Assembly: GCA_023265925.1 (NCBI GenBank)
Contig: JAHFSD010000013.1
Coordinates: forward strand, 1 to 33,064
DNA from: an archaeon
GTDB taxonomy: Archaea > Nanobdellota > Nanobdellia > Woesearchaeales > GW2011-AR9
DNA: 33,064 bases
Reading direction: 5' to 3'
The position numbers were made by a program, and so were the translations under genes. Each line of letters opens with the position of its first letter. Position 1 is the stretch's first letter. The notes under the pieces were generated by a model. That model saw only the letters and a program-made list of their open reading frames with translations, was not told the DNA's origin and made no database searches. This document shows, in pieces, positions 1,475 to 31,015 of the stretch.

Positions 1475-2107
1475 ATGAACAAAACATGTGCCTTTCAGGA
1501 GACAGAATTTCACGGCTGGCCCCTTCTGAAAATCAATTATCCCCAGGATGTATCCCGGTTAGAGCCCCATCCGCAGCCGTACCGCAGAATTGTCGTTCAC
1601 CATGCCGGTTCGGTGGATTACACTATTGAGGACTTAATCGGCCTTCATCGAGAAAAATTAGGCTGGGGAGCAATCGGCTATCATTTTCTCATTGGTTCTG
1701 CCGGGGAATTATATTATGCCCGTGACCTGCGCTTTAAAGGGGCCCATGCCTATCCGAATACGGGAAAGATCGGAATCAGTTTCCTCCGCAGTTTTGAGGA
1801 GAAAGAACCCAATGAGCGGGAACTGGCCACCTGGACCACTTTTACCAAACATCTCACGGAACAATTGCCGATTCCCGTTGTCGGGCATAATCAGGACCAA
1901 TTTTTAGAACTGTCGAAACGGTACGGCCTTGTTGCTGATTATCCTGAACTGGCACAAAGGTTACTTATCCCCAAAAGCAGAGAAGACTTTGAACAGGCCA
2001 AGCAACAACTTCATCGCCTTCATGATACCTTCGAATATCACCAACTAATCACAAAGCTTAAAACCTGTCCCGGCATCGGGTTTTACCGGAGGATGCCGCA
2101 TGGCTAA
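1475..2107 (+). CDS. amidase_2/PGRP-type zinc amidase
   Basis: Resembles N-acetylmuramoyl-L-alanine amidases of the T7 lysozyme/PGRP family, zinc enzymes that cut the bond between the sugar lactyl group and the stem peptide. Visible motifs: VVHHAG (H42/H43), GYHFLI (Y69), GAHAYPN (H91) with the following IGISF strand, GHNQ (H138) and TCPG (C198). The usual final His and Cys zinc ligands are separated here by an unusual insertion of about 55 residues (141-196) rich in charged residues. There is no signal peptide or transmembrane segment, so it is either cytoplasmic (recycling type) or exported by another route. It is first in an operon: its last 8 bases overlap the next gene, and its TATA box predicts a leaderless message. 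The family call is fairly firm. The actual substrate in an archaeon without known murein is open. Confidence 0.8.
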   Translation: MNKTCAFQETEFHGWPLLKINYPQDVSRLEPHPQPYRRIVVHHAGSVDYTIEDLIGLHREKLGWGAIGYHFLIGSAGELYYARDLRFKGAHAYPNTGKIGISFLRSFEEKEPNERELATWTTFTKHLTEQLPIPVVGHNQDQFLELSKRYGLVADYPELAQRLLIPKSREDFEQAKQQLHRLHDTFEYHQLITKLKTCPGIGFYRRMPHG

Positions 2108-2972
2108 ACTGGAAGAATTATTTACAGGGAAGTTGTATTCCATCCAGAAGAAAGTAAAAGAAAAAACAGGGGCAGATCTGAAAATAGCTTTCGATGATTT
2201 ACAGAGCAACACTCAATATAGCGTGAATGGAACGAAGCCAGGCTGGGCAGCATCGATGATTAAAATTCCAGTGCTGATAGCAACATTTAGGGCTATCGAT
2301 GCCGGAAGGCTTTCGTTGGAGGATGAATTATCCATTGACCATCGTTTTACGTTAGATCCTACTTCCGAAATCAGCTATCGGCAGCAAGGCAGTACTGCCA
2401 CAGTGACAGAATTAGCTAATTATATGATTTTAGCTTCCTGTAATGAATCCACCAATATGCTGGCAGATCGTATTGGCATACCATTTATTAATTCAACAAT
2501 GCAGGAATTGAACTGTTCTGCCACACGGATGAGCCATCTGATCTATCAAATGGCGCCTTTAGAGGATCCCGGTATCGATGGAACTTCGTCTAACACGACA
2601 ACGGCAGAAGAAATGACATCCCTGATGAAAAGGATTTACCGTTCAGAACTTGCTTCTCCCGCCTCCTGTACCAGAATGAGGCAGATATTGGAAAATGATC
2701 CCGCCTTGGAGTATGGAAGAGCATCAGTAAATCATTTCCTGCAAGCAAGCCTCCCCCGAGGAACTTTGGTAGGAGCAAAATGCGGCGTATTAGGTGACGA
2801 CATCATGGAGACAGGTGTTATTAACGGAGATTATGCACTCACGGTTATGCTCAACAAACTTTCCTCTGCTGCGGGAGGAGCAGGAGTAATCTCAGCAATT
2901 TCGGAGGCAGTATATCAAAGATATTACCATGACCAACTACCAAGCGTTAATGGGGATCGAGAGCGAGTTTAG
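2100..2972 (+). CDS. beta-lactamase-fold serine hydrolase (class A-like, SxxK)
   Basis: Serine hydrolase of the class A beta-lactamase/DD-peptidase fold. The nucleophile motif is S52-M-I-K55, the second motif is S113-C-N115 in place of SDN, and the third is K227-C-G229 in place of KTG. The stretch NTTTAEEM after the omega-loop region is also typical of class A proteins. No ExxLN-type general base is evident, so real beta-lactamase activity is doubtful; a carboxypeptidase, transpeptidase or esterase role is equally possible. There is no signal sequence, unlike bacterial periplasmic relatives. The gene overlaps the amidase by 8 bp and the ligase by 44 bp, which implies co-expression. About 290 aa is normal for the fold. 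Confidence 0.8.
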   Translation: MAKLEELFTGKLYSIQKKVKEKTGADLKIAFDDLQSNTQYSVNGTKPGWAASMIKIPVLIATFRAIDAGRLSLEDELSIDHRFTLDPTSEISYRQQGSTATVTELANYMILASCNESTNMLADRIGIPFINSTMQELNCSATRMSHLIYQMAPLEDPGIDGTSSNTTTAEEMTSLMKRIYRSELASPASCTRMRQILENDPALEYGRASVNHFLQASLPRGTLVGAKCGVLGDDIMETGVINGDYALTVMLNKLSSAAGGAGVISAISEAVYQRYYHDQLPSVNGDRERV

Positions 2973-4599
2973 GTTGATGGACGCTGGCCATCCCCGGGAC
3001 GGAAAGGAACACTTTTCTGCTGTAGTCAACGCTCTTCCCATTCCTTACTTTAAACGCAGCGATAATTGTGTTCGCCTCGCCACTGGCGGATCATTTTATA
3101 TCGACGGATCGGAGCCGGAAGTTACCACTGCCCCTTTCTACGTGGAGCCAGGAGCAGTTACCGGGTTAGCCTCTAACCTATACCTAAACTTAAATCCAGT
3201 CCTGGCGGCATTGCAGAAAATAAATGGCGAGAACGGAAAACTGTATTTACAGGGCTATTCTGCCCATTTTAGTTTTACTTTTCCGGCAATCTCTTCCAGG
3301 ACCGCTCAAGTTGCCCATCTCTTGGCGACAACTGCTAATCCCGCTATCCAATTATTCATCGAAAACAGGAAAAGTAGCGGCGTGATGTTTCGTCATCGGG
3401 CGAATGGAAGATTGGAAATTTGTGGGGATTATGTTCCTGGGTTAGAAAATTTGGTGTCAGCAGTTGCCTTTCAGGCAACATTGCTTTCCACCATAGACCA
3501 TTGGCTTAGCGAGGGAGCAAGCCTGGATGACGTGAAGCATCAATTACGTTATAGTTTACCGCCAGAACAAGTGCGAAGTTGCCGTTTACGTCGGGGATAC
3601 CTGCTGCCAACGCCGGAAGTAATTCAGCAAGGCCGCAGGGCCCTTCTCGAGATGCATGATGGCTGGGATGGGCGTACTGCTGCCCGGCAACTTTCTGTAC
3701 AGGAACTCCTGGAACATCTCTACCAGCTGTGTGAGCCAGCGGCAGAAACAATTCTTTCTCCTGCCGAGCAGAAACTCCTGCTGGCCGCAGTGGAAAGGAC
3801 AAAGAAACTTCCCATTGACAGTCATGGTTATCCGGCTGGCTATGCGAAAGTTGAGCCTGTACCTGTCAATGCCAGAATTGCCGTCTCTCCGTTAACCAAA
3901 GCGCTGGGCAATGCCGTGCAGGAAAGACAGGTAGAAGGGGTGCGGTTAATTCCTGACTACGTTGGCTGGGATGCCGTTGGGTATTCCTGCCAGAATGGAA
4001 AACAACCTGAAAAAATATGGGTGCCATTGAAGGATCTGGTTGCCTTTGACCGGCTGGTAGAAGAGCATCCGGAACTGCTTAAACCATTGATTGCCAAAAC
4101 ATTGACAGAACAGCAAAGAATAACACTGGCAGCAGTAGGGATTACCGATCCGGATAGATTCTCTACCTACGTGCCGCCACAAGAACAGCCGGCAGATCAA
4201 CATCATAACTATCTCTTAAGCTTCCTCAATGGGAACATTATAGAGCTAGATCAAAGAATGGAGAATTTGCGTGAAGAAAGGCAGATGTATTATAGTTCCA
4301 TCGAAAACATAATTAATTACTCCATTAAAAATAACAGTAAAAATGGTGAGTCTATTTTCAAAGAAGAATACAATAAAGATAAAATAGTGGCATATACCTC
4401 TGTTCTCTCAGACAAGATTAAGATTAATGAACCGAAGAAAAAATCGCCTCCGCGAAATAAACGGCCAGGAAGATTCGATAAAGAAGATTTTGGAAGTGAG
4501 CTGGAGGAGATTGTTTCTGAGTACTTTAATTTACATGAAAATAGTATGAATCGAGAAAAGGATGAGAGAAAGAGAGAAACCAAAAAATATATTCCCTGA
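2929..4599 (+). CDS. glutamine-synthetase-fold carboxylate-amine ligase (GCS2/Pup-ligase-like)
   Basis: The N-terminus has the pattern seen in ATP-dependent carboxylate-amine ligases of the GS superfamily (gamma-glutamate-cysteine ligase, PafA/Dop): GIESEFRL (E11, E13), then TGGSFYIDGSEPEVTT (residues 52-67), which matches the 'NG.rlY.D..HPE.sT' signature of Pup ligases in shape. Further on are GYSAHFSF (109-116) and RLEICGDY (161-168), the latter like the conserved Arg/Glu strand. It would activate a carboxylate as acyl phosphate and join it to an amine. After residue 430 or so the protein changes to a lysine-rich, low-complexity, partly coiled-coil tail and the DNA becomes AT-rich, which suggests a later addition. 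It starts inside the preceding hydrolase gene (44 bp overlap). An alternative start is the Met at 2950. Precise family and substrates are unknown. Confidence 0.6.
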   Translation: MTNYQALMGIESEFRLMDAGHPRDGKEHFSAVVNALPIPYFKRSDNCVRLATGGSFYIDGSEPEVTTAPFYVEPGAVTGLASNLYLNLNPVLAALQKINGENGKLYLQGYSAHFSFTFPAISSRTAQVAHLLATTANPAIQLFIENRKSSGVMFRHRANGRLEICGDYVPGLENLVSAVAFQATLLSTIDHWLSEGASLDDVKHQLRYSLPPEQVRSCRLRRGYLLPTPEVIQQGRRALLEMHDGWDGRTAARQLSVQELLEHLYQLCEPAAETILSPAEQKLLLAAVERTKKLPIDSHGYPAGYAKVEPVPVNARIAVSPLTKALGNAVQERQVEGVRLIPDYVGWDAVGYSCQNGKQPEKIWVPLKDLVAFDRLVEEHPELLKPLIAKTLTEQQRITLAAVGITDPDRFSTYVPPQEQPADQHHNYLLSFLNGNIIELDQRMENLREERQMYYSSIENIINYSIKNNSKNGESIFKEEYNKDKIVAYTSVLSDKIKINEPKKKSPPRNKRPGRFDKEDFGSELEEIVSEYFNLHENSMNREKDERKRETKKYIP

Positions 4600-14726: not shown

Positions 14727-15455
14727 ATGGGCACTCAACGCGTCGAAGTCTTGATTGAAGGCGGGAAAGCAACGGCAGCTCCTCCGTTAGGCCCGGCCCT
14801 GGGCCCTCTCGGTGTCAATATCGGACAAGTCATCATGGAAATCAATAAAAAGACCGCTGACCTGTCCGGGATGCAAGTGCCCGTCAAAGTCATTGTTGAT
14901 ACGGATTCTAAGCTGTTTATGATCGAAATTGGCACGCCGCCTGCTTCGGCTTTGATTCGCAAGGAAGCGGGCGTGGAAAAAGGCGCCTCCAATCCCCTGA
15001 CGGAAAAAGTCGCTGACCTGATGATTGAACAGATCATCAAGATTGCTAAAATGAAAGAAGATTCTCTTCTTGGTAAAGATCTGAAGGCAAAAGCCAAAGA
15101 GATTATCGGCACCTGCAATTCCATGGGCATCCTGGTGGAAGGAATGCCGGCGAGAGAGGCATTGCGGGCGATCGAACAAGGCCGGTTTGACGAGGAGATC
15201 AGGCTGGAAAAGACCGAACTTACCGCTGAAGAAAAAGCCCACTTAACGGAAGAGCGCAAGCGCCTGCAGGAAGAGATTGAAAAGCGCCGGGCTGAATTCG
15301 AAGCGAAAGCCAAGCAAATCCTCAAAGAAATGGAAGGACAGGAGAAAAAGAAGATCAGGACGGCGATGTCCACTGCCGGAATTCCCCAGAAGATCATCGA
15401 TGAGCTGGCTCCCCCCGAGAAGAAGGAGGAAGCGCCGGGCGGGAAGAAAAAGTAG
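14727..15455 (+). CDS. rpl11: ribosomal protein uL11 with long C-terminal extension
   Basis: Archaeal-type uL11, which binds the GTPase-associated region of 23S rRNA. The first 155 residues match the family: VLIEGGKATAAPPLGPALG (8-26), LGVNIGQVI, INKKTADLSGMQVPVKV, FMIEIGTPPASALI, and the C-terminal rRNA-binding block KEIIGTCNSMGILVEG. After residue 158 there are about 85 extra residues, mostly charged and predicted coiled coil (LTEERKRLQEEIEKRRAEF), then a short stretch TAGIPQKIIDELAPP and a Lys-rich tail. Normal archaeal uL11 is about 160 aa. It stands alone rather than next to uL1/uL10 genes as in many archaea. The base composition matches the neighbours. Confidence 0.95.
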   Translation: MGTQRVEVLIEGGKATAAPPLGPALGPLGVNIGQVIMEINKKTADLSGMQVPVKVIVDTDSKLFMIEIGTPPASALIRKEAGVEKGASNPLTEKVADLMIEQIIKIAKMKEDSLLGKDLKAKAKEIIGTCNSMGILVEGMPAREALRAIEQGRFDEEIRLEKTELTAEEKAHLTEERKRLQEEIEKRRAEFEAKAKQILKEMEGQEKKKIRTAMSTAGIPQKIIDELAPPEKKEEAPGGKKK

Positions 15456-21565: not shown

Positions 21566-23887
21566 TCACCCAAAATACTTTTCCCTTTCCACCTTAATCT
21601 GCTTCGCTCTTGCCACCGAAAAATAATTCTCCAGTTCCTGATAAGCAGTTTCCACTTCTTTATCCACCGACGGTTTGACGGCTTTCAGGGCCTCCTCAAA
21701 ATGCTTCAGGCTTACTTCCTTTGACTTCATGTCTTCCCGCAGGGCGATCATCGCCGCTTCCCGGCAGACCCCTTCAATGTCGGCACCAACATACCCTTCT
21801 GTCTTTTCTGCCAATGTATCCGCATTTACGTCTGCCGCCACCGGCATCTTCTGCAGGTAAATTTCAAAGATCCTCTTACGGCTCTGCTGCTCAGGAATCT
21901 GGGTCAGGATGATGCGGTCAAACCGTCCCGGACGCAATAAAGCCGGGTCTAACATGTCCGGCCGGTTAGTGGCGCCAATCACAACGACGTCATGCAGGCT
22001 TTCCAATCCGTCCATCTCGGTCAGCACCTGATTGACCACCCGTTCATAGACGCGGCTTTCATCGCCCGCACCCCGGCGGGGAACCAGGGCATCAATCTCA
22101 TCAAAAAACAGGATCGTGGGTGCAGTTATTCTCGCTTTGCGAAAGATTTCCCGGACGGCTTTTTCGCTGTCGCCGACCCATTTACTCAACAAACTAGGGC
22201 CATTGACCAGGATAAAGTTTGCTTCACTTTCCTTAGCAACTGCTTTTGCTAACATCGTTTTCCCCGTTCCCGGCGGGCCATACAGTAAAATGCCGCGGGG
22301 CGGGCGGATACCCATGCGTTTAAAGACTTCCGGCTTCTTGAGCGGCCATTCCACCGCTTCCTTCAGCTTATCCTTGATATCTTCCAATCCACCAATGTCT
22401 TCCCAATTGATGTCGGGTGTTTCCACCAAGACTTCGCGCATGGCACTAGGACGAACGACCTTGAGAGATTCCATGAAATCTTTTTGCATAATCTGCAATT
22501 TTTCTAAAATCTCTTTGGGAATGGGCTGGCCTTCCTCGATGCCTTCTAACTTAAGGTCGGGCAGGATGCGGCGCAGGACGATCATCGCCGATTCTTTGGC
22601 CAGAGCATTCAGGTCAGCGCCGACAAAGCCATGGGTGATGCGGGCTACCTCTGCCAGATTGACATTTTTAGCAAGAGGCATGTTACGGGTATGAATTTTC
22701 AGGATCTCCAGACGGCCATGCTTGTCGGGCACGCCAATTTCAATCTCCCGGTCAAACCTTCCCGGCCTTCTCAAAGCGGGATCTAACGTGTTCGGCATGT
22801 TGGTGGCCGCAATGACGATGACTTTCCCCCGGCTTTTCAGGCCGTCCATCAGGCCCAGAAGCTGGCCAACAACCCGTTTCTCGACCTCGCCCCGCAGCTC
22901 TTCCCGCTTGCTGGCAATGGCATCAATCTCATCGAAGAAGATGATCGAGGGTGCATTCTTTTCCGCTTCTTCAAATTTCTTGCGCAGGTTTTCCTCGCTC
23001 TGCCCATACCACTTGGACATGATTTCCGGCCCATTAATCAGAATGAAATGCGAGTTAGTTTCCGACGCAACCGCTTTCGCCAGCAGGGTTTTACCCGTTC
23101 CCGGCGGGCCATGCAGCAGCACTCCCTTCGGCGCTTCAATTCCCAGCTTTTCAAAGATTTCCGGATGTTTCAGGGGCAGCTCGACCATCTCCCGGACTTT
23201 TTTGATCTCTTCTCCCAATCCACCAATATCTTCATAGTTGACGCCGACGCTGATGCCGTCTTCTTCCTTCAATTCCACGGCCTGCGGATTGAATTCCACT
23301 TCCGTTTCCTGGGTGATGACGACGATTTCTTTCTTGGGCATGGTGTCAACACATTGGAAAACAATGTCGCCAAAGCCAAAGCCAGAAAATTGGTCTTCCA
23401 TGGCAGCAAAAATCTCTTCAATATGCCCGTGAACATTGACCCGGCGCCGGCTTCTGCCGAGAGAAACTAAATCGCCTTTGACGACGGCTTTGCCCAGCAG
23501 GCCCTGCTTAAATAACTGTGGATGGGCTTTGACCAGGATGCCCTTGGTAGCCGGGGCGATGACGACACGCTTGGCGGCCTTGACTTCCGCTTTCTTGACG
23601 GCAACCATTTCGCCGATCGACGTGCGGGAATTCCGCCGGGTATTTCCGTCCATGCGGACGATATTCAGGCCAATGTCGCCGGGATAAGACCGGTCAACGA
23701 CTGCGGCGGTGCTGCGTTCGCCTTTTAATTCCACCACATCGCCGGGGCTGACGCCAATTTGTTTCATGAAACTGGAATCTATCTTAACCAGGCCGCGATT
23801 GACGTCATCCTGTACTGCTTCCATCACCTTCAGCCGGATCAAAGGCCGGGAAGGCGGCGGTGGTGGAGGGACTGTTCCTTGTTCCAT
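21566..23887 (-). CDS. cdc48: CDC48/VAT-type AAA+ ATPase
   Basis: Archaeal homologue of p97/Cdc48, a hexameric unfoldase that feeds proteins to the proteasome and remodels complexes. Residues 14-190 are the double-psi-barrel plus 4-fold N domain ([19 protein letters not shown]...). The D1 ATPase has Walker A GPPGTGKT at 260-267 and Walker [11 protein letters not shown] (DE at 319-320). D2 has Walker A at 537-544 and Walker [11 protein letters not shown] near 592-601, with arginine fingers in the LRPGRFDR motifs. 773 aa is close to the usual 730-810. A proline-rich head PPPPPPSRP precedes the N domain. A TATA-like CTTTAAAAAG is about 34 nt upstream (23916-23926). Convergent with the lipoprotein gene, with only 16 bp between the stops. 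Confidence 0.95.
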
Positions 23888-24916: not shown

Positions 24917-24949
24917 TGAACAGATAATAGCAAAACACATTAATAATGT

Positions 24950-25251
24950 CATGAAAATGCGGGAAAGCGCCGCATTTTCAGGACGCCAAAAAAGAAAACC
25001 ACGCCCTAAAATGAGGGGCTTTCTTTTTTGTGCGGAACAAATAGTGTGTTTTGATAGGATAGTAAAGTGCCTATCAATATAGACAATTGCGTTGATTATG
25101 TTACACGGAAAAAGCCAGAAAGCTACGGGCTTTAGCCCGTAGATGAAAGGCTCTGGCTTTTTCGTGTCCTGAAAATGCGGGGGCAAGAAAGCGCCTCAGT
25201 TCAAGCCACGGACTTTAGTCCGTGGTGAGGCGCTTTCCCGCATTTTCATGA
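24950..25251. repeat. large inverted repeat with REP-like hairpins
   Basis: GTCATGAAAATGCGGGAAAG at the left (from about 24951, continuing into CGC) pairs with its complement at the right end (to about 25251). Inside are two IS200/REP-type hairpins with a TTTA loop: CTACGGGC-TTTA-GCCCGTAG (25123-25142), enclosed in a longer stem 25103-25168, and CCACGGAC-TTTA-GTCCGTGG (25206-25225), enclosed by GCGCCTCA/TGAGGCGC (25191-25233). A further hairpin lies near 24987-25030. No transposase is present. The element occupies most of the 463-bp gap before the sigma gene. Confidence 0.75.
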
Positions 25252-25349
25252 CTTTGATACGCAATTGTCTATCAGGAAATTGCGCTGGATATAATGTCAC
25301 TAAATTAGCGCAATTGACTATAAGTCCCATTATTTGTGCACTTTACTAT
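25059..25349. repeat. second inverted repeat, interlocked with the first
   Basis: ATAGTAAAGTGC (25059-25070) pairs with GCACTTTACTAT (25338-25349), and GACAATTGCGTTGAT near 25082-25096 pairs imperfectly with ATACGCAATTGTC near 25257-25269. A short AATTGCGCT/AGCGCAATT hairpin lies within 25277-25315. The left arms fall inside the first large inverted repeat and the right arms outside it, so the two cannot both fold at once in a simple way. Confidence 0.65.
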
Positions 25350-25379
25350 AAGAACAAGCAAGTGATTAATTCATCTTTA

Positions 25380-26699
25380 TCATTCTACAAATCCATTTAA
25401 TAACCTTGCCTGTGCCGGCTGCCGTAATTTTCGTAACGCCCGTTCTTCCACCTGGCGAATGCGTTCCCGCGTAACGCCATATTTATCTCCTACCTCCTGC
25501 AAGGTATACACCCGCCCATAGCCGATGCCAAAGCGCTGCCGCAGGATTATCTGCTCCCTATCGGGCAATTGCACCAGGGCCTGCTCGACTGCTTCTTCTA
25601 ATTCCCGGTGAGTGCTGTAATGCGATGGCAACGGAATCTCCGTATCTTCCACTTGGTCATGGAGGGTGTAATCCTGGTCATCTCCCCTGGGCGCTTCCAG
25701 CGAGAGCAGCCCACGGGCATGAACAGCCAATTCTTCTATTTTCCGCAGCGGCTGGCCCAGATATTCGGCGATTTCTTGCCGCGTCGGCTCCCGCTGCAGT
25801 TGCTGCTCCAGAGAATGGCGGGACTTGCGGATGTTCCTGGACTCTCCCATTTTGTTGACAGGCAGCCAGATCTGCCGCTCGTACCCAAAACAATTCCAGG
25901 TATTCCTCCTGATCCACCAGATGGCAAAGGTGTTGAAACGGTTTCCCCGCCGCCAGTCGTAGCGATCAATCGCCTTCAGCAGCCCAACATTGCCTTCCTG
26001 CACCAGGTCAAGGAAAGGTATGCCGCGGCCGGCGTATCCGCCTGCTACCATCATTACCAGGCGCAGATTGGCTTCGGCAAACTGGCTGCGGAGCTGGTGG
26101 TACTCAGCTACCCGCGGTTCGACTGCCGCTCGGGCTTGTGGGGTAACGGTAGGATCACTGTTCACGTAGTTGACCAGGCCGGGCAATTCTTCCGGCTGCA
26201 GGGGAGGAATCAAATCAATTCCGCGTTGAATGTACTGCTCGCGCAAGTGCGGCCGCTTCTGCATTGCCGTTTCGATCGTTTTATATTTTTGAATTACTTT
26301 GGCAAAATATTCCTTCCTTTTTTTGGTCTTGACCTTTTGAAACGAGAGAACAGTTTCGATTTTTACTTCCTTCCTGTCCACCTTTTCCTGCCGGGAATAG
26401 AGGAAGGCATAGGCTTGCTCCGGCACTTCCCGGAAAATACAATGGTACAGTTGTGTTCGTGCCGCATCTAATTGTTGCGCCAGGAGCCGTTCGCCATCCC
26501 GGGTCAGGAGAGGCACACGGGATGCCCGGGCAAATAGAGGTTGAGAAGACTCTTCCCATCCTATCTTCGTTTCCAGGGAAGTGGAAGCACCGTTATCTGA
26601 TGAATATAGTGGTGAATATAATGGAGAAAATGGTGGTGAAGTGGGTGGACTGCCTAATGGAGAAGATGATGCGGAAAATGACACAGGATAGGCTTTCAT
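25380..26699 (-). CDS. sigma-70 family RNA polymerase sigma factor
   Basis: 439 aa with all the functional parts of a primary-type bacterial sigma. Residues 52-84 resemble region 1.2 (PLFARASRVPLLTRDGERLL). A non-conserved charged spacer runs about 90-200. Region 2 spans about 205-282 and includes the core-binding PFLDLVQEGNVGLLKAIDRY and the -10-recognising NTFAIWWIRRNTWN. Region 3 is about 284-350. Region 4 (about 365-432) ends in the -35-recognising helix-turn-helix VGDKYGVTRERIRQVEER. The N-terminal 35 residues are an odd Ser/Pro-rich tract (PLYSPLYS). The gene itself has an archaeal TATA box (TCTTTAAAAAC region, about 39 nt upstream) and an AGAGG before the ATG. It is divergent from a phosphatase-superfamily gene. 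Complete sigma factors in some DPANN genomes have been reported from single-cell work; how they act is not known to me. Confidence 0.95.
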   Translation of the reverse strand: MKAYPVSFSASSSPLGSPPTSPPFSPLYSPLYSSDNGASTSLETKIGWEESSQPLFARASRVPLLTRDGERLLAQQLDAARTQLYHCIFREVPEQAYAFLYSRQEKVDRKEVKIETVLSFQKVKTKKRKEYFAKVIQKYKTIETAMQKRPHLREQYIQRGIDLIPPLQPEELPGLVNYVNSDPTVTPQARAAVEPRVAEYHQLRSQFAEANLRLVMMVAGGYAGRGIPFLDLVQEGNVGLLKAIDRYDWRRGNRFNTFAIWWIRRNTWNCFGYERQIWLPVNKMGESRNIRKSRHSLEQQLQREPTRQEIAEYLGQPLRKIEELAVHARGLLSLEAPRGDDQDYTLHDQVEDTEIPLPSHYSTHRELEEAVEQALVQLPDREQIILRQRFGIGYGRVYTLQEVGDKYGVTRERIRQVEERALRKLRQPAQARLLNGFVE

Positions 26700-27916: not shown

Positions 27917-28138
27917 TTATCCTATATACATAGCAGGGGAACATTTGATGCAGTGAGATTTATTGTCCAGTGCGGGAGTGGCTCGGCAAAAAGAGGCATT
28001 ACGGCTTAAAAATTAAAAATTCTCTGGTTTTAGGGGGTGGCAGGAGTTGTCCAGTGGCTAGGAGTGGTAGAGATTTTTGTGATTAGCGAGTAGGATTCTC
28101 TTTTGGCTTTATGGAGTCAGTAATACGGCTTTATATAG

Positions 28139-28176
28139 AGAACTGCGCAACTTATATCCTATTTGTGCGCAGTTCT
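28139..28176. repeat. short perfect hairpin
   Basis: AGAACTGCGCA (28139-28149) and its complement (28166-28176) form an 11-bp stem with a 16-nt loop. It is the first of three foldbacks in the 687-bp gene-free stretch 27917-28603. The part before it (27917-28138) shows nothing recognisable. Confidence 0.6.
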
Positions 28177-28180
28177 AATC

Positions 28181-28322
28181 TGGTAAACTGCGTATCAAAG
28201 TCTACACTTTTGCGTTTCTGAGAGAATCAATCGCCGCAAAAGTGTAGATTACGAGGCTTTTGCCTAATCAGATATAAAACGCAAAAGTCGAGGAAGTGTG
28301 CTATAAGCTACGCAGTTTACCA
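28181..28322. repeat. 142-bp foldback with 14-bp terminal inverted repeats
   Basis: Ends TGGTAAACTGCGTA (28181-28194) and its exact complement (28309-28322). Inside is a perfect 14-bp hairpin TCTACACTTTTGCG (28201-28214) with 28235-28248. No coding sequence. No clear target duplication. It looks like a miniature inverted-repeat element. Confidence 0.7.
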
Positions 28323-28365
28323 TATCACTAATTTTGCCAGTTGTGGCCCAATTGGAGATATAGGG

Positions 28366-28528
28366 GGTTATGTTTAATTTTTGCCCATGCTAATAAGCTT
28401 AAAAACCACGATTTTTAGGGCAAAAACTCTGCGGATTTCTGCGGAAATCCTTGCCTCGCACCCAGACTTTTCCAGCTCTAAAATTTCCCTGAAATTTCGA
28501 GGGAAAAGTCGGGCTCGGAAACATAACC
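28366..28528. repeat. 163-bp foldback with two inner hairpins
   Basis: GGTTATGTTT (28366-28375) and its complement (28519-28528) close a unit with two inner stems: TTTTTGCCC (28378-28386) with 28418-28426, and CCCAGACTTTTCC (28461-28473) with 28501-28513 (a near-perfect complement). Same general build as the preceding foldback but different sequence. Confidence 0.6.
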
Positions 28529-28603
28529 TAGTTAAGCGACATATTACTCAGGAGCACTTTTTGGATTTAAAACGGGCAGGAAAATTTAGATCGCTGTCGT
28601 TCT

Positions 28604-29053
28604 TTACAGCGTTACGAACTCTGTCTTCAATTGCTTCAGCGATGTTAATGAAACGATTTTGTTAATTCCTCTTCGTGAAATGACATTCTTTACTAGATTA
28701 TAATATGTATCTTGATCTTTAACTCTTACTTTTAGAATCATCTCCCAATTGCCTGTACAAATATCTACACTTTCAACTTCTGGATGTTTGGCTAAATCCT
28801 TACCAATCTTTTCAGGATTCCCATATTCATCTGGGGAAAGACTAATCAGTACAAAAACACAGAATCCCTCATCAATTTTCTTATAGTCAAAAATTGCCTT
28901 ATAGGTTTTAATGGCTCCCTCTTTCTCTAACTTCTTAATATTGTAATGAATTGTCGTAGATGGCTCTTTGAGCTTTTTTGCTATCTTGGCTATCTGAGGA
29001 GTGCAATTTCCTTCTTTGAATAGTTTTACAATTTTTTCCGTGATGTTCTTCAT
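28604..29053 (-). CDS. Lrp/AsnC-family transcriptional regulator
   Basis: 149 aa from the Met at 29053. Residues 1-55 are the winged helix (IVKLFKEGNCTPQIAKIAKK, then STTIHYNIKKLEKEGAIK); residues 60-149 are the RAM/ligand domain (FVLISLSPDEYG..., VESVDICTGNWEMILKVRV). Such regulators sense amino acids and often control a divergent metabolic operon. Here the divergent neighbours include an Asp/Glu racemase, so an amino-acid ligand is likely. A seven-codon upstream extension to 29074 would cover the operator and lie too close to the TATA box (29079-29090), so 29053 is preferred. DNA is markedly AT-rich. Confidence 0.9.
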   Translation of the reverse strand: MKNITEKIVKLFKEGNCTPQIAKIAKKLKEPSTTIHYNIKKLEKEGAIKTYKAIFDYKKIDEGFCVFVLISLSPDEYGNPEKIGKDLAKHPEVESVDICTGNWEMILKVRVKDQDTYYNLVKNVISRRGINKIVSLTSLKQLKTEFVTL

Positions 29054-29059
29054 AGTGAA

Positions 29060-29074
29060 TTGAATAATATTCAA
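29060..29074. promoter_or_regulatory. perfect palindrome, probable Lrp operator
   Basis: TTGAATAATATTCAA is a perfect 15-bp palindrome between the TATA box (29079-29090, minus strand) and the start codon of the Lrp gene, where binding would block its transcription. A second candidate site is the inverted pair CTTAATAT (29093-29100) and ATATTAAG (29122-29129), which overlaps the TATA-like AAATATATTA of the divergent operon. Confidence 0.6.
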
Positions 29075-29195
29075 TAATATATAAATTTATCGCTTAATAT
29101 TCGTATTTTGTTCAATCAAATATATTAAGATGCTACAACTTCTACTATTTGAAGTAAAATGAAAAATCAATCACTAGAGGCTAAGGCACAAAATT

Positions 29196-30053
29196 GTGCT
29201 GGTCGCCGGTATCACAAGCAAAGAAGATTTAGCTAGATTTATCACTCAGGAGCCCCTAGTTGAGACTAAACCGTCATTGACCGGAATTTCTCAAATACCA
29301 GAAGTAAATGCTTTATACTTTGGAGTTGGCCTCTGTAATGGAGTCCCTATGCTCAGTACAGGTTTACCAGTTGACGTTTTGAGCATGATTCTTAGCGGAG
29401 AACAGCTAGATGCACCTAAACATATTCTTGTTGCAGATACTCACGCTATTACAAATGGTTTTGACACTCAATCGGTAGATAGATTAGCTGGACAATACCA
29501 AGAAACTCTTCAACGAGCTGTAGAAAATTTAGGCTTTTCAGGATGGGAAGTAACCAGAGCTTCCGAAGTAGATCAAACTACTACTTACCAAGATTTACTT
29601 AGAACTATTGAAGCTTCCCACGATTACATCAGAAGAGAATTGGCAGATATGCGTTGGTTCAATCAAGAACATGACGTGAATCTCAAAGTAGGCTGGGCTC
29701 TTAATGGAAGCAAGAACTCAGATGAAACATCATTTGACCAAGAATTCCAACGCCAGTTTGATGACCATTTGGGATTTATCTACGTGATGCCCGGCAGAAC
29801 GTTTGATCCTAAGAGGCTTCGCTCTGCGCCATACTTTTGCACTAATCCGGAAGAGAGAATCTTGCTTCAAGCAGGTGAAAATGTCGCGAATAAGATAGCT
29901 TCAGCTCAGGAACAATTTGGTCAACAAGCAACAAGACCTTACGAAAAATTCCTCAGCCAAGTTATCAGGCTATACGACAAAACAGTTGAGAGAACGGAAC
30001 GAGGGCTTATTGCCGGCAGACTACAACAAGTAATAGACAGGTGTACAAAATGA
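29196..30053 (+). CDS. unknown enzyme, possibly class-I synthetase/cyclodipeptide-synthase-like (HUP fold)
   Basis: 285 aa from a GTG. Not recognised with confidence. The N-terminal half reads as a Rossmann/HUP domain: LYFGVGLCNG (residues 46-55), MLSTGLPVDVLSMIL, HILVADTHAITNGFD (77-91). It then has long helices with VTRASEVDQTTTYQDLL, a layout reminiscent of class-I tRNA synthetases and cyclodipeptide synthases (which have a 'vDthID' strand and 'vtR.SEl....Y..l'). The catalytic Ser of cyclodipeptide synthases is not evident. The stop overlaps the racemase start (ATGA), so the two probably act together on an amino acid. The start is uncertain: the nearest promoter (about 29118-29127) would give a leader of some 45 nt. 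Confidence 0.5.
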   Translation: MLVAGITSKEDLARFITQEPLVETKPSLTGISQIPEVNALYFGVGLCNGVPMLSTGLPVDVLSMILSGEQLDAPKHILVADTHAITNGFDTQSVDRLAGQYQETLQRAVENLGFSGWEVTRASEVDQTTTYQDLLRTIEASHDYIRRELADMRWFNQEHDVNLKVGWALNGSKNSDETSFDQEFQRQFDDHLGFIYVMPGRTFDPKRLRSAPYFCTNPEERILLQAGENVANKIASAQEQFGQQATRPYEKFLSQVIRLYDKTVERTERGLIAGRLQQVIDRCTK

Positions 30054-30751
30054 ATCAAGAAATCTTAGGAGTAATTGGAGGACTAGGCCCCGAAACAGGA
30101 TGTAAGTTTTGTCTAAATGTAAACAGAAAATTTAAACCACTTACAAAAAGACAACCACACATTTTGCTAGATAATCTTCCAATCTCTCAAGAGGCAGAAG
30201 AACGCCTGATCAATGGAGGACCATCTCAAGAACATCTAGACTTGTTACTTGAATCCGTACAACGCCTCAATAAACTAGGGGCAGATTTGATTGTTATTGC
30301 CTGCAATACAGTTCATATCTTTATTGATGAGCTTAGAAAAGAATCAACTGTTCCGATACTAAGTATTATTGAAGAAACAGCAAAAAAATGTAAAGACATG
30401 AACATTTCAAAAGTTGGAATTCTTGGCTCTACTAAAACTATCAAGTCTAATCTTCATGCTAACGAACTCAGAAAACAAAATATTAAATCAACAATTCCTG
30501 ATGAGGATAGTCAACGATTTGTAAGTGAGTGTATTCTAAAAATTATCAACAACCAGATTAAAGATGATGATAAAATACGGATGATAAAAATAATAGAAAA
30601 ACTTGAGAAAGAGGGAGCCGAGGGGATTATTTTAGGATGTACTGAGTTACCATTACTAATATCAGATCAAGACGCAAAAATACCAATAATTAACACTACA
30701 GAAATCTTAGAAGATTCTTCTGTAAACAACTTAATTAACAAAATCAAATAA
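30050..30751 (+). CDS. aspartate/glutamate racemase family protein
   Basis: 233 aa, PLP-independent Asp/Glu/hydantoin racemase family. Two catalytic cysteines are in place: IACNTVH (about residues 83-89) and LGCTELPLL (about 192-200). The N-terminal GVIGGLGPE is the family start motif. It makes a D-amino acid (D-Asp or D-Glu) or a related epimer. Translation starts at 30050, overlapping the previous stop by 4 bp. AT-rich like the rest of this island; probably under the Lrp regulator. Confidence 0.9.
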   Translation: MNQEILGVIGGLGPETGCKFCLNVNRKFKPLTKRQPHILLDNLPISQEAEERLINGGPSQEHLDLLLESVQRLNKLGADLIVIACNTVHIFIDELRKESTVPILSIIEETAKKCKDMNISKVGILGSTKTIKSNLHANELRKQNIKSTIPDEDSQRFVSECILKIINNQIKDDDKIRMIKIIEKLEKEGAEGIILGCTELPLLISDQDAKIPIINTTEILEDSSVNNLINKIK

Positions 30752-30887
30752 ATTTTCTGCCCTAGAAAAGTAATATCGCCATGTGCTCAAAGAAAAGTGC
30801 TCCTTGCGTCATAACTCTTCGTCGGGCTACGCCCTCCTTGTTCCTCCCACTTCGTAGTCGGAAGAATATAACAAGCATTAAGCTTAA

Positions 30888-31015
30888 TATTTTGGTGGGC
30901 TTAATTATTGACCAGATTAGAAGTTACGGGCACAAAGAAAAAGAAACAAAAACATAGCTGTGCACTTACACTACCTCTTGGTCATATTAACGGAACAACT
31001 TAGCCCACCAAAATA
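30888..31015. repeat. inverted repeat in a gene-free stretch
   Basis: TATTTTGGTGGGCTTA (30888-30903) pairs with 31000-31015 (15 of 16). Short GGGCTACGCCC (30823-30833) and other weak stems lie around it. The whole gap 30752-31187 has no gene-like reading frame. It may be another foldback element marking the edge of the AT-rich island. Confidence 0.5.

Follow-up and report, generated by a model that had tools for sequence, protein, structure and literature searches.

A sigma-70 factor resembling primary sigmas in an archaeal genome with a single archaeal RNA polymerase

A 33,064-nt stretch of archaeal DNA (contig JAHFSD010000013.1 of assembly GCA_023265925.1, order Woesearchaeales), called the window below, encodes a genuine sigma-70 factor that resembles the primary (group 1/2) sigmas. 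Chromosomes across this archaeal phylum harbor a resident repertoire of such factors, yet it is patchy and fast-evolving. We tentatively favor the reading that the protein is an accessory specificity factor acting on the archaeal polymerase through altered docking; its binding to that polymerase and its service to a small regulon are both things we infer. The single archaeal polymerase would transcribe nearly all genes, the sigma gene included, from TATA promoters. Region 2.2 of the sigma would dock, in a modified way, on the clamp coiled coil of that polymerase, region 4 would read a −35-type box, region 2 would read and melt a −10-type element, and a small set of genes would be switched by the sigma-bearing polymerase. 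Our interface data weaken this reading, and there is positive proof for none of its rivals.

Pfam profiles matched regions 2, 3, and 4 of the protein in the expected order (Sigma70_r2, E = 1.4e-16; r3, 1.7e-14; r4, 7e-17), all above the curated cut-offs (60.5 bits against 24, 54.1 against 25.3, and 61.1 against 24.1, respectively). Region 1.2 fell below the Pfam threshold in the profile search. It is supported by a confident helical block at residues 50–100 of an AlphaFold model (pLDDT 85–95), and it aligns both with E. coli RpoD and with region 1.2 of the sigma of a congeneric genome, G001. The confident helical blocks of the model, which has a mean pLDDT of 76, are regions 1.2, 2, 3, and 4. 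The best PDB relatives of the protein are RpoD and SigA (best E = 3e-62), and the top Foldseek matches of the model are sigma-70 chains of RNA polymerase holoenzymes (E = 8e-18), with low overall TM-scores that stem from a different orientation of the domains and from uncertainty in part of the model. The open reading frame, the profile and structure matches, and the modeled region 1.2 thus bear out the preliminary description of this gene as a complete sigma-70 factor with all four regions. The Ser/Pro-rich head that it called unusual is also present, and those residues are predicted to be disordered. Ahead of region 1.2 there are just some 50 residues, most of them disordered; a region 1.1 of primary sigmas was looked for there and not found. 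We therefore classify the protein as resembling group 1/2 and not as a true group 1 primary sigma (Table 1).

Table 1. Features of the window, with positions counted from its first letter.
Feature	Position	Strand	Basis
Sigma-70 family gene, 439 aa	25380..26699	(-)	ORF, ATG at 26699; Pfam; PDB RpoD/SigA matches
Ser/Pro-rich N-terminal head, residues 1-40	26580..26699	(-)	pLDDT about 40, without secondary structure
Region 1.2 and start of helical N-terminal block, about residues 50-92	26424..26552	(-)	pLDDT 85-95; alignments
Non-conserved stretch between regions 1.2 and 2.1, about residues 93-198	26106..26423	(-)	start homologous to G001 sigma
Region 2 (core-binding 2.1-2.2; -10 reading 2.3-2.4), about residues 203-268	25896..26093	(-)	PF04542
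Region 3, about residues 283-360	25620..25853	(-)	PF04539
Region 4, -35 reading helix-turn-helix, about residues 370-437	25389..25592	(-)	PF04545
TATA-like box TTTAAAAA	26733..26740	(-)	34-41 bp upstream of sigma start; sequence
Cdc48 AAA+ ATPase, archaeal context marker	21566..23887	(-)	PF02359 and AAA; 83% identity to G001
Ribosomal protein uL11, archaeal context marker	14727..15455	(+)	PF03946 and PF00298

We examined the positions that we take, from general knowledge, to contact the clamp, the −10 element, and the −35 element (E. coli numbering by position). Those of region 2.2 are also given in PMC8321222. The equivalents of D403, Q406, E407, and N409 in region 2.2 are all identical in the window sigma, as are those of R554, R584, E585, R588, and Q589, which read the −35 box. 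Among the −10 reading positions, W433 and W434 are kept, Y430 is replaced by F, Q437 by R, and T440 by W, with a one-residue gap nearby; Y425 is replaced by N. The core-binding and both promoter-reading elements had been described as recognizable. This stands for core binding and for the −35 reader, but the −10 reader is not fully canonical, and because of the changes at Q437, Y425, and T440 the −10 preference of this protein is probably altered relative to canonical sigmas. Across 49 archaeal sigmas, the beta′-clamp-contacting residues (D403 in 47, Q406 in 44, E407 in 43, N409 in 40) and the promoter-reading ones (W434 in 42; Q437, E585, and R588 in 41 each) are held about as well as in bacterial sigmas. 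A loss of polymerase-contacting residues among close homologues, raised earlier as a possible objection, was not found in this set. Some family members do lack clamp or −10 residues. A syntenic copy in genome G010 (L223:9693-11123), for example, retains its N-terminal part but is degenerate at the residues that read the −10 and −35 boxes.

The genome (1.2 Mb in 57 contigs, 86% complete) encodes one archaeal Rpo1, one archaeal Rpo2, which is fragmented, and TFB. In this genome and three relatives, a TATA-like motif peaks at −21 to −40 before start codons, with about 13–49 occurrences per 1000 positions against mostly 2–8 outside the peak (about 10–20 in the AT-rich genome G055). The same count gave no such peak upstream of start codons in E. 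coli. Together with uL11 and Cdc48, these features match the expression setting first described, with TATA promoters and archaeal informational proteins. The sigma gene has its own TATA-like box in the 65 bp that separate it from a divergent gene. TATA-like boxes precede 13 of 42 sigma genes and 143 of 625 neighbors. That they are about equally frequent before both favors an accessory factor.

Contamination, in which a bacterial gene was binned or assembled into an archaeal genome, has only a minimal chance of being the explanation. In its favor, regions 2–4 are about as close to bacterial RpoD (42–45% identity) as to archaeal homologues (34–41%), or slightly closer. However, the contig carries archaeal genes, and the Cdc48 encoded 1.5 kb away from the sigma closely matches the congener's. 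The N-terminal part of the sigma is also homologous to that of the G001 sigma (residues 53–147, E = 2e-10; best of 20 shuffles, 0.0065). Many independent genomes carry a sigma, which refutes contamination for the family, and Castelle et al. 2021 (PMC8204110) ruled out mis-binning in their own set. With homologues in 39 of 60 near genomes and a conserved gene order as well, we conclude from these comparisons that the window locus is not the chimera of bacterial and archaeal reads that had been considered at the outset.

Those 39 genomes are our own, 28 of the 36 others in the family, and 10 of the 23 that belong elsewhere in the order. In the phylum at large, 128 of 371 genomes, about a third, have sigma-70 region 2, and its distribution is patchy. 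Gene order around the sigma is conserved over genera. In about six genomes the gene lies between IleRS and a DUF7343 protein, and in two it lies beside the S13-S4-S11-Rpo3-L18e-L13-S9 cluster, where the gap of about 180–230 bp to S13 means that co-transcription with the cluster is not to be claimed. The chromosomal and partly syntenic position of the sigma genes favors the accessory-factor reading. Their diversification into primary-like, FliA-like, and fused forms is as expected of regulators. Our own genome holds a second, FliA-type (group 3)-like sigma on contig C56 (L025:9132-10487), which lacks most of the contact and reading residues; its neighborhood, with NurA and PLD-like genes, resembles that of a primary-like sigma in genome G006. 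Sigma proteins of 666–1741 aa are common in the order, and a 1550-aa frame in G012 (L039:9696-14348) combines a FliA-like and a primary-like sigma-70 module with helix-turn-helix domains.

In two families of the order (G016 and G117), a GHKL-type ATPase gene directly adjoins the sigma gene (L031:12065-14446 and L212:6320-8359), and the C-terminal part of this ATPase resembles the gene upstream of the sigma in G006. As a general sigma partner the ATPase was set aside, since a sequence search found it in only 3 of 60 relatives; it remains a local candidate. An RsbW-like anti-sigma (HATPase_c_2), found in 28 of the 60 genomes, had no clear tie to sigma presence and was likewise dropped as a partner.

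The sigma evolves far faster than is usual for a core initiation factor, which weakens the accessory-factor reading. In two syntenic congeneric pairs, the sigmas are 41% and 49% identical while their neighbors are mostly 65–96% identical (50–61% for one duplicated neighbor family in the second pair). Sigma dN was 0.60 and 0.44 in the two pairs against mostly 0.02–0.25 for neighbors, which puts the sigma at or near the top for divergence, and sigma dS (1.7 and 1.2) was high within the neighbors' range or exceeded it. Between our genome (G000) and G001, Rpo1 is 82% identical and the sigma about 30%. Divergence is uneven along the protein: regions 2.1–2.4 and 4.2 are mostly held, and regions 3.1–3.2 and 4.1 change most. 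When matched for overall divergence, archaeal sigmas are constrained like bacterial ones in regions 2.1–2.2, 4.1, and 4.2 and are looser in 3.0–3.2 (0.31, 0.24, and 0.33 in the closest class, against 0.57, 0.42, and 0.50 in bacteria); the comparison draws on a small bacterial sample with non-independent pairs. Constraint on 2.1–2.4 and 4.2 with loosening of 3.0–3.2 fits kept clamp and promoter contacts and altered contacts inside the polymerase, and in this respect favors an accessory factor.

That the sigma genes are relics or mobile cargo, arriving repeatedly from bacteria or their viruses and decaying without function, is in our judgment quite improbable. Their patchy distribution and fast evolution would suit such an origin, sigma genes do occur on phages and plasmids, and in a tree with 49 rows from archaea and 16 from bacteria the two groups mixed without resolution: the branches were long, the archaeal rows did not form one clade, and we claim no origin from it. 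But the open frames are kept and dN/dS is below 1 (about 0.35–0.6), constraint is concentrated on the functional helices, and gene order persists over genera. No relative turned up when viral contigs were scanned with the window protein. The same protein, scanned against named genomes, gave a single match, one Silvanigrellales sigma.

Where a relative gave a polymerase match, it had a single archaeal Rpo1 and lacked a second polymerase, which favors action of the sigma on the resident enzyme as an accessory factor. The known docking surface argues the other way. In all 30 genomes aligned, our own included, E. coli beta′ R275, E295, and A302 are matched in the Rpo1 clamp by I, L, and H. Each of the single changes R275Q, E295K, and A302D makes holoenzyme formation deficient (PMC8321222). 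The alignment also has E at the position of R281; R278 and N276 are kept. The net charge of the coil is −6 in our genome (range −6 to −4), compared with +1 in E. coli, while the sigmas retain the acidic D403 and E407. Our Rpo2 also has no flap-tip helix, a lack that is common in archaea (PMC8321222). The alignments thus give a resident polymerase without the known bacterial sigma-docking determinants, and these mismatches weaken the accessory-factor reading. It is weakened further in that nothing about the clamp sets sigma-bearing genomes apart from sigma-free ones. As far as the aligned residues tell, the polymerase has no visible adaptation to sigma, though the sigmas retain their bacterial-type residues.

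These interface data make room for a DNA-binding regulator that forms no holoenzyme, in which regions 2 and 4 would bind promoter-like DNA or compete with TBP/TFB. We regard this as unlikely, though it deserves serious weight. Besides the absent docking sites, it could account for the relaxation of region 3, which lies inside a holoenzyme, and for the loss of clamp or −10 residues in members such as the G010 copy. The region 2.2 residues may also serve folding, allostery, and −10 box reading (PMC8321222), so their conservation is no proof of docking and might reflect folding or allostery instead. Against this, regions 2.1–2.2 are as constrained as in bacterial sigmas, with D403 and Q406 among the best kept positions of the set, and a pure DNA binder would have no need of the melting residues W433 and W434, yet most members keep them.

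Promoter searches gave no sign of a sigma regulon on the scale of a genome. Pairs of TTGACA-like and TATAAT-like boxes at a spacing of 16–18 showed no clear excess in G000 (about 280 kb taken in), G016, or G055, nor in the sigma-free G049. The controls were weak, with E. coli only 1.4–1.8 times background and Paenibacillus flat, so the power of this test is low. Auto-regulation found no support either, as −35/−10 boxes were not enriched before 42 sigma genes (mean rank 0.50). The paired boxes that had been suggested as a check therefore did not appear as a global set. The missing signal, genome-wide and before the sigma genes, weakens the accessory-factor reading, and it makes a role as the main specificity factor of the genome unlikely; with controls this weak, the sigma may still serve a small regulon. 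Which polymerase the sigma partners and which promoters it targets had been posed as the live question, and the docking mismatch and the absence of a global −35/−10 set have sharpened it.

The sigma could instead act on a bacterial RNA polymerase, for example after delivery into a bacterial partner or host whose transcription it would redirect. We consider this improbable, if a little less so than a relic or mobile cargo. It would fit bacterial-type clamp-contact and promoter-reading residues that are kept despite a mismatched clamp at home, as well as the fast evolution, the lack of a target promoter signal in the genome itself, and the lack of clamp co-evolution. The window holds genes for a peptidoglycan amidase domain and a beta-lactamase fold, and PMC8204110 mentions a suggestion that some relatives have bacterial hosts. 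Even so, a hydropathy scan found no signal peptide or membrane segment in any sigma, which speaks against export. Regions 3.0–3.2, which contact the inside of the bacterial polymerase, are less constrained than in bacteria, and several sigma copies have housekeeping genes as neighbors. Just 11 of the 60 relatives have Amidase_2, whose occurrence does not visibly follow that of sigma, and we dropped it as a mark of bacterial hosts. Cross-domain transcriptional hijacking, with an archaeal sigma working on a bacterial RNA polymerase in another cell, would explain docking residues without a matching polymerase, fast evolution, and missing target promoters of its own; we hold it to be slightly less probable than even the relic origin.

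Transcription initiation is among the sharpest divides between bacteria and archaea, with sigma on one side and TBP/TFB on the other. TFB works with the polymerase clamp and helps open promoters. It belongs to a different sequence family from the window sigma and reads BRE/TATA with TBP. Complete sigma factors in archaea were reportedly described from single-cell genomes by Rinke et al. in 2013. The archaeal sigma factors of that study are cited in a review (PMC6126073). Castelle et al. 2021 (PMC8204110) described sigma-70 in Woesearchaeota, excluded mis-binning, and left function and control open. Their Woesearchaeota/DPANN sigma-70 (fam00359) likewise comes from small-genome archaea with TBP, TFB, and TFE and has no known regulator. 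The kind is thus already published, and the window sigma is a new member. The accessible part of PMC8204110 is silent on the polymerase interface, the rate of evolution, gene order, and promoters, and in the accessible literature we found no earlier account of the interface mismatch, the evolution rate, the conserved positions, or the promoter tests.

Compared with RpoD/SigA (group 1), the window sigma shares 42–45% identity over regions 2–4, a complete −35 set, and the core-binding residues. It differs in its short and dissimilar N-terminal part, in the changes at Q437, Y425, and T440, in belonging to a genome without a bacterial polymerase, and in evolving much faster. With intact sigmas in a third of the sampled genomes of the phylum, beside an archaeal polymerase that seems not to fit them, nature offers a test of whether the two systems mix or sigma is put to another use. 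Given the interface mismatch, the rapid divergence at conserved loci, and the lack of a global promoter signal, what was a known curiosity now leads to concrete predictions that can be refuted.

The window has further features of its own. Just downstream of the sigma gene, positions 24925–25353 hold dense nested inverted repeats, and matching repeat pieces lie together within about 65–100 bp at L170:2715-2812, L025:11586-11688, and L183:3147-3210. By its repeat pattern, the stretch resembles a small palindromic element that two further insertions have broken up. At 1475–4599, overlapping genes encode an N-acetylmuramoyl-L-alanine amidase domain protein, a beta-lactamase-fold protein, and a 556-aa protein without a Pfam match, a gene set unusual for an archaeon. 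GC content drops to about 0.35–0.39, against about 0.48, over the Lrp/AsnC and Asp/Glu racemase genes at 28000–31000, which is perhaps a recent acquisition.
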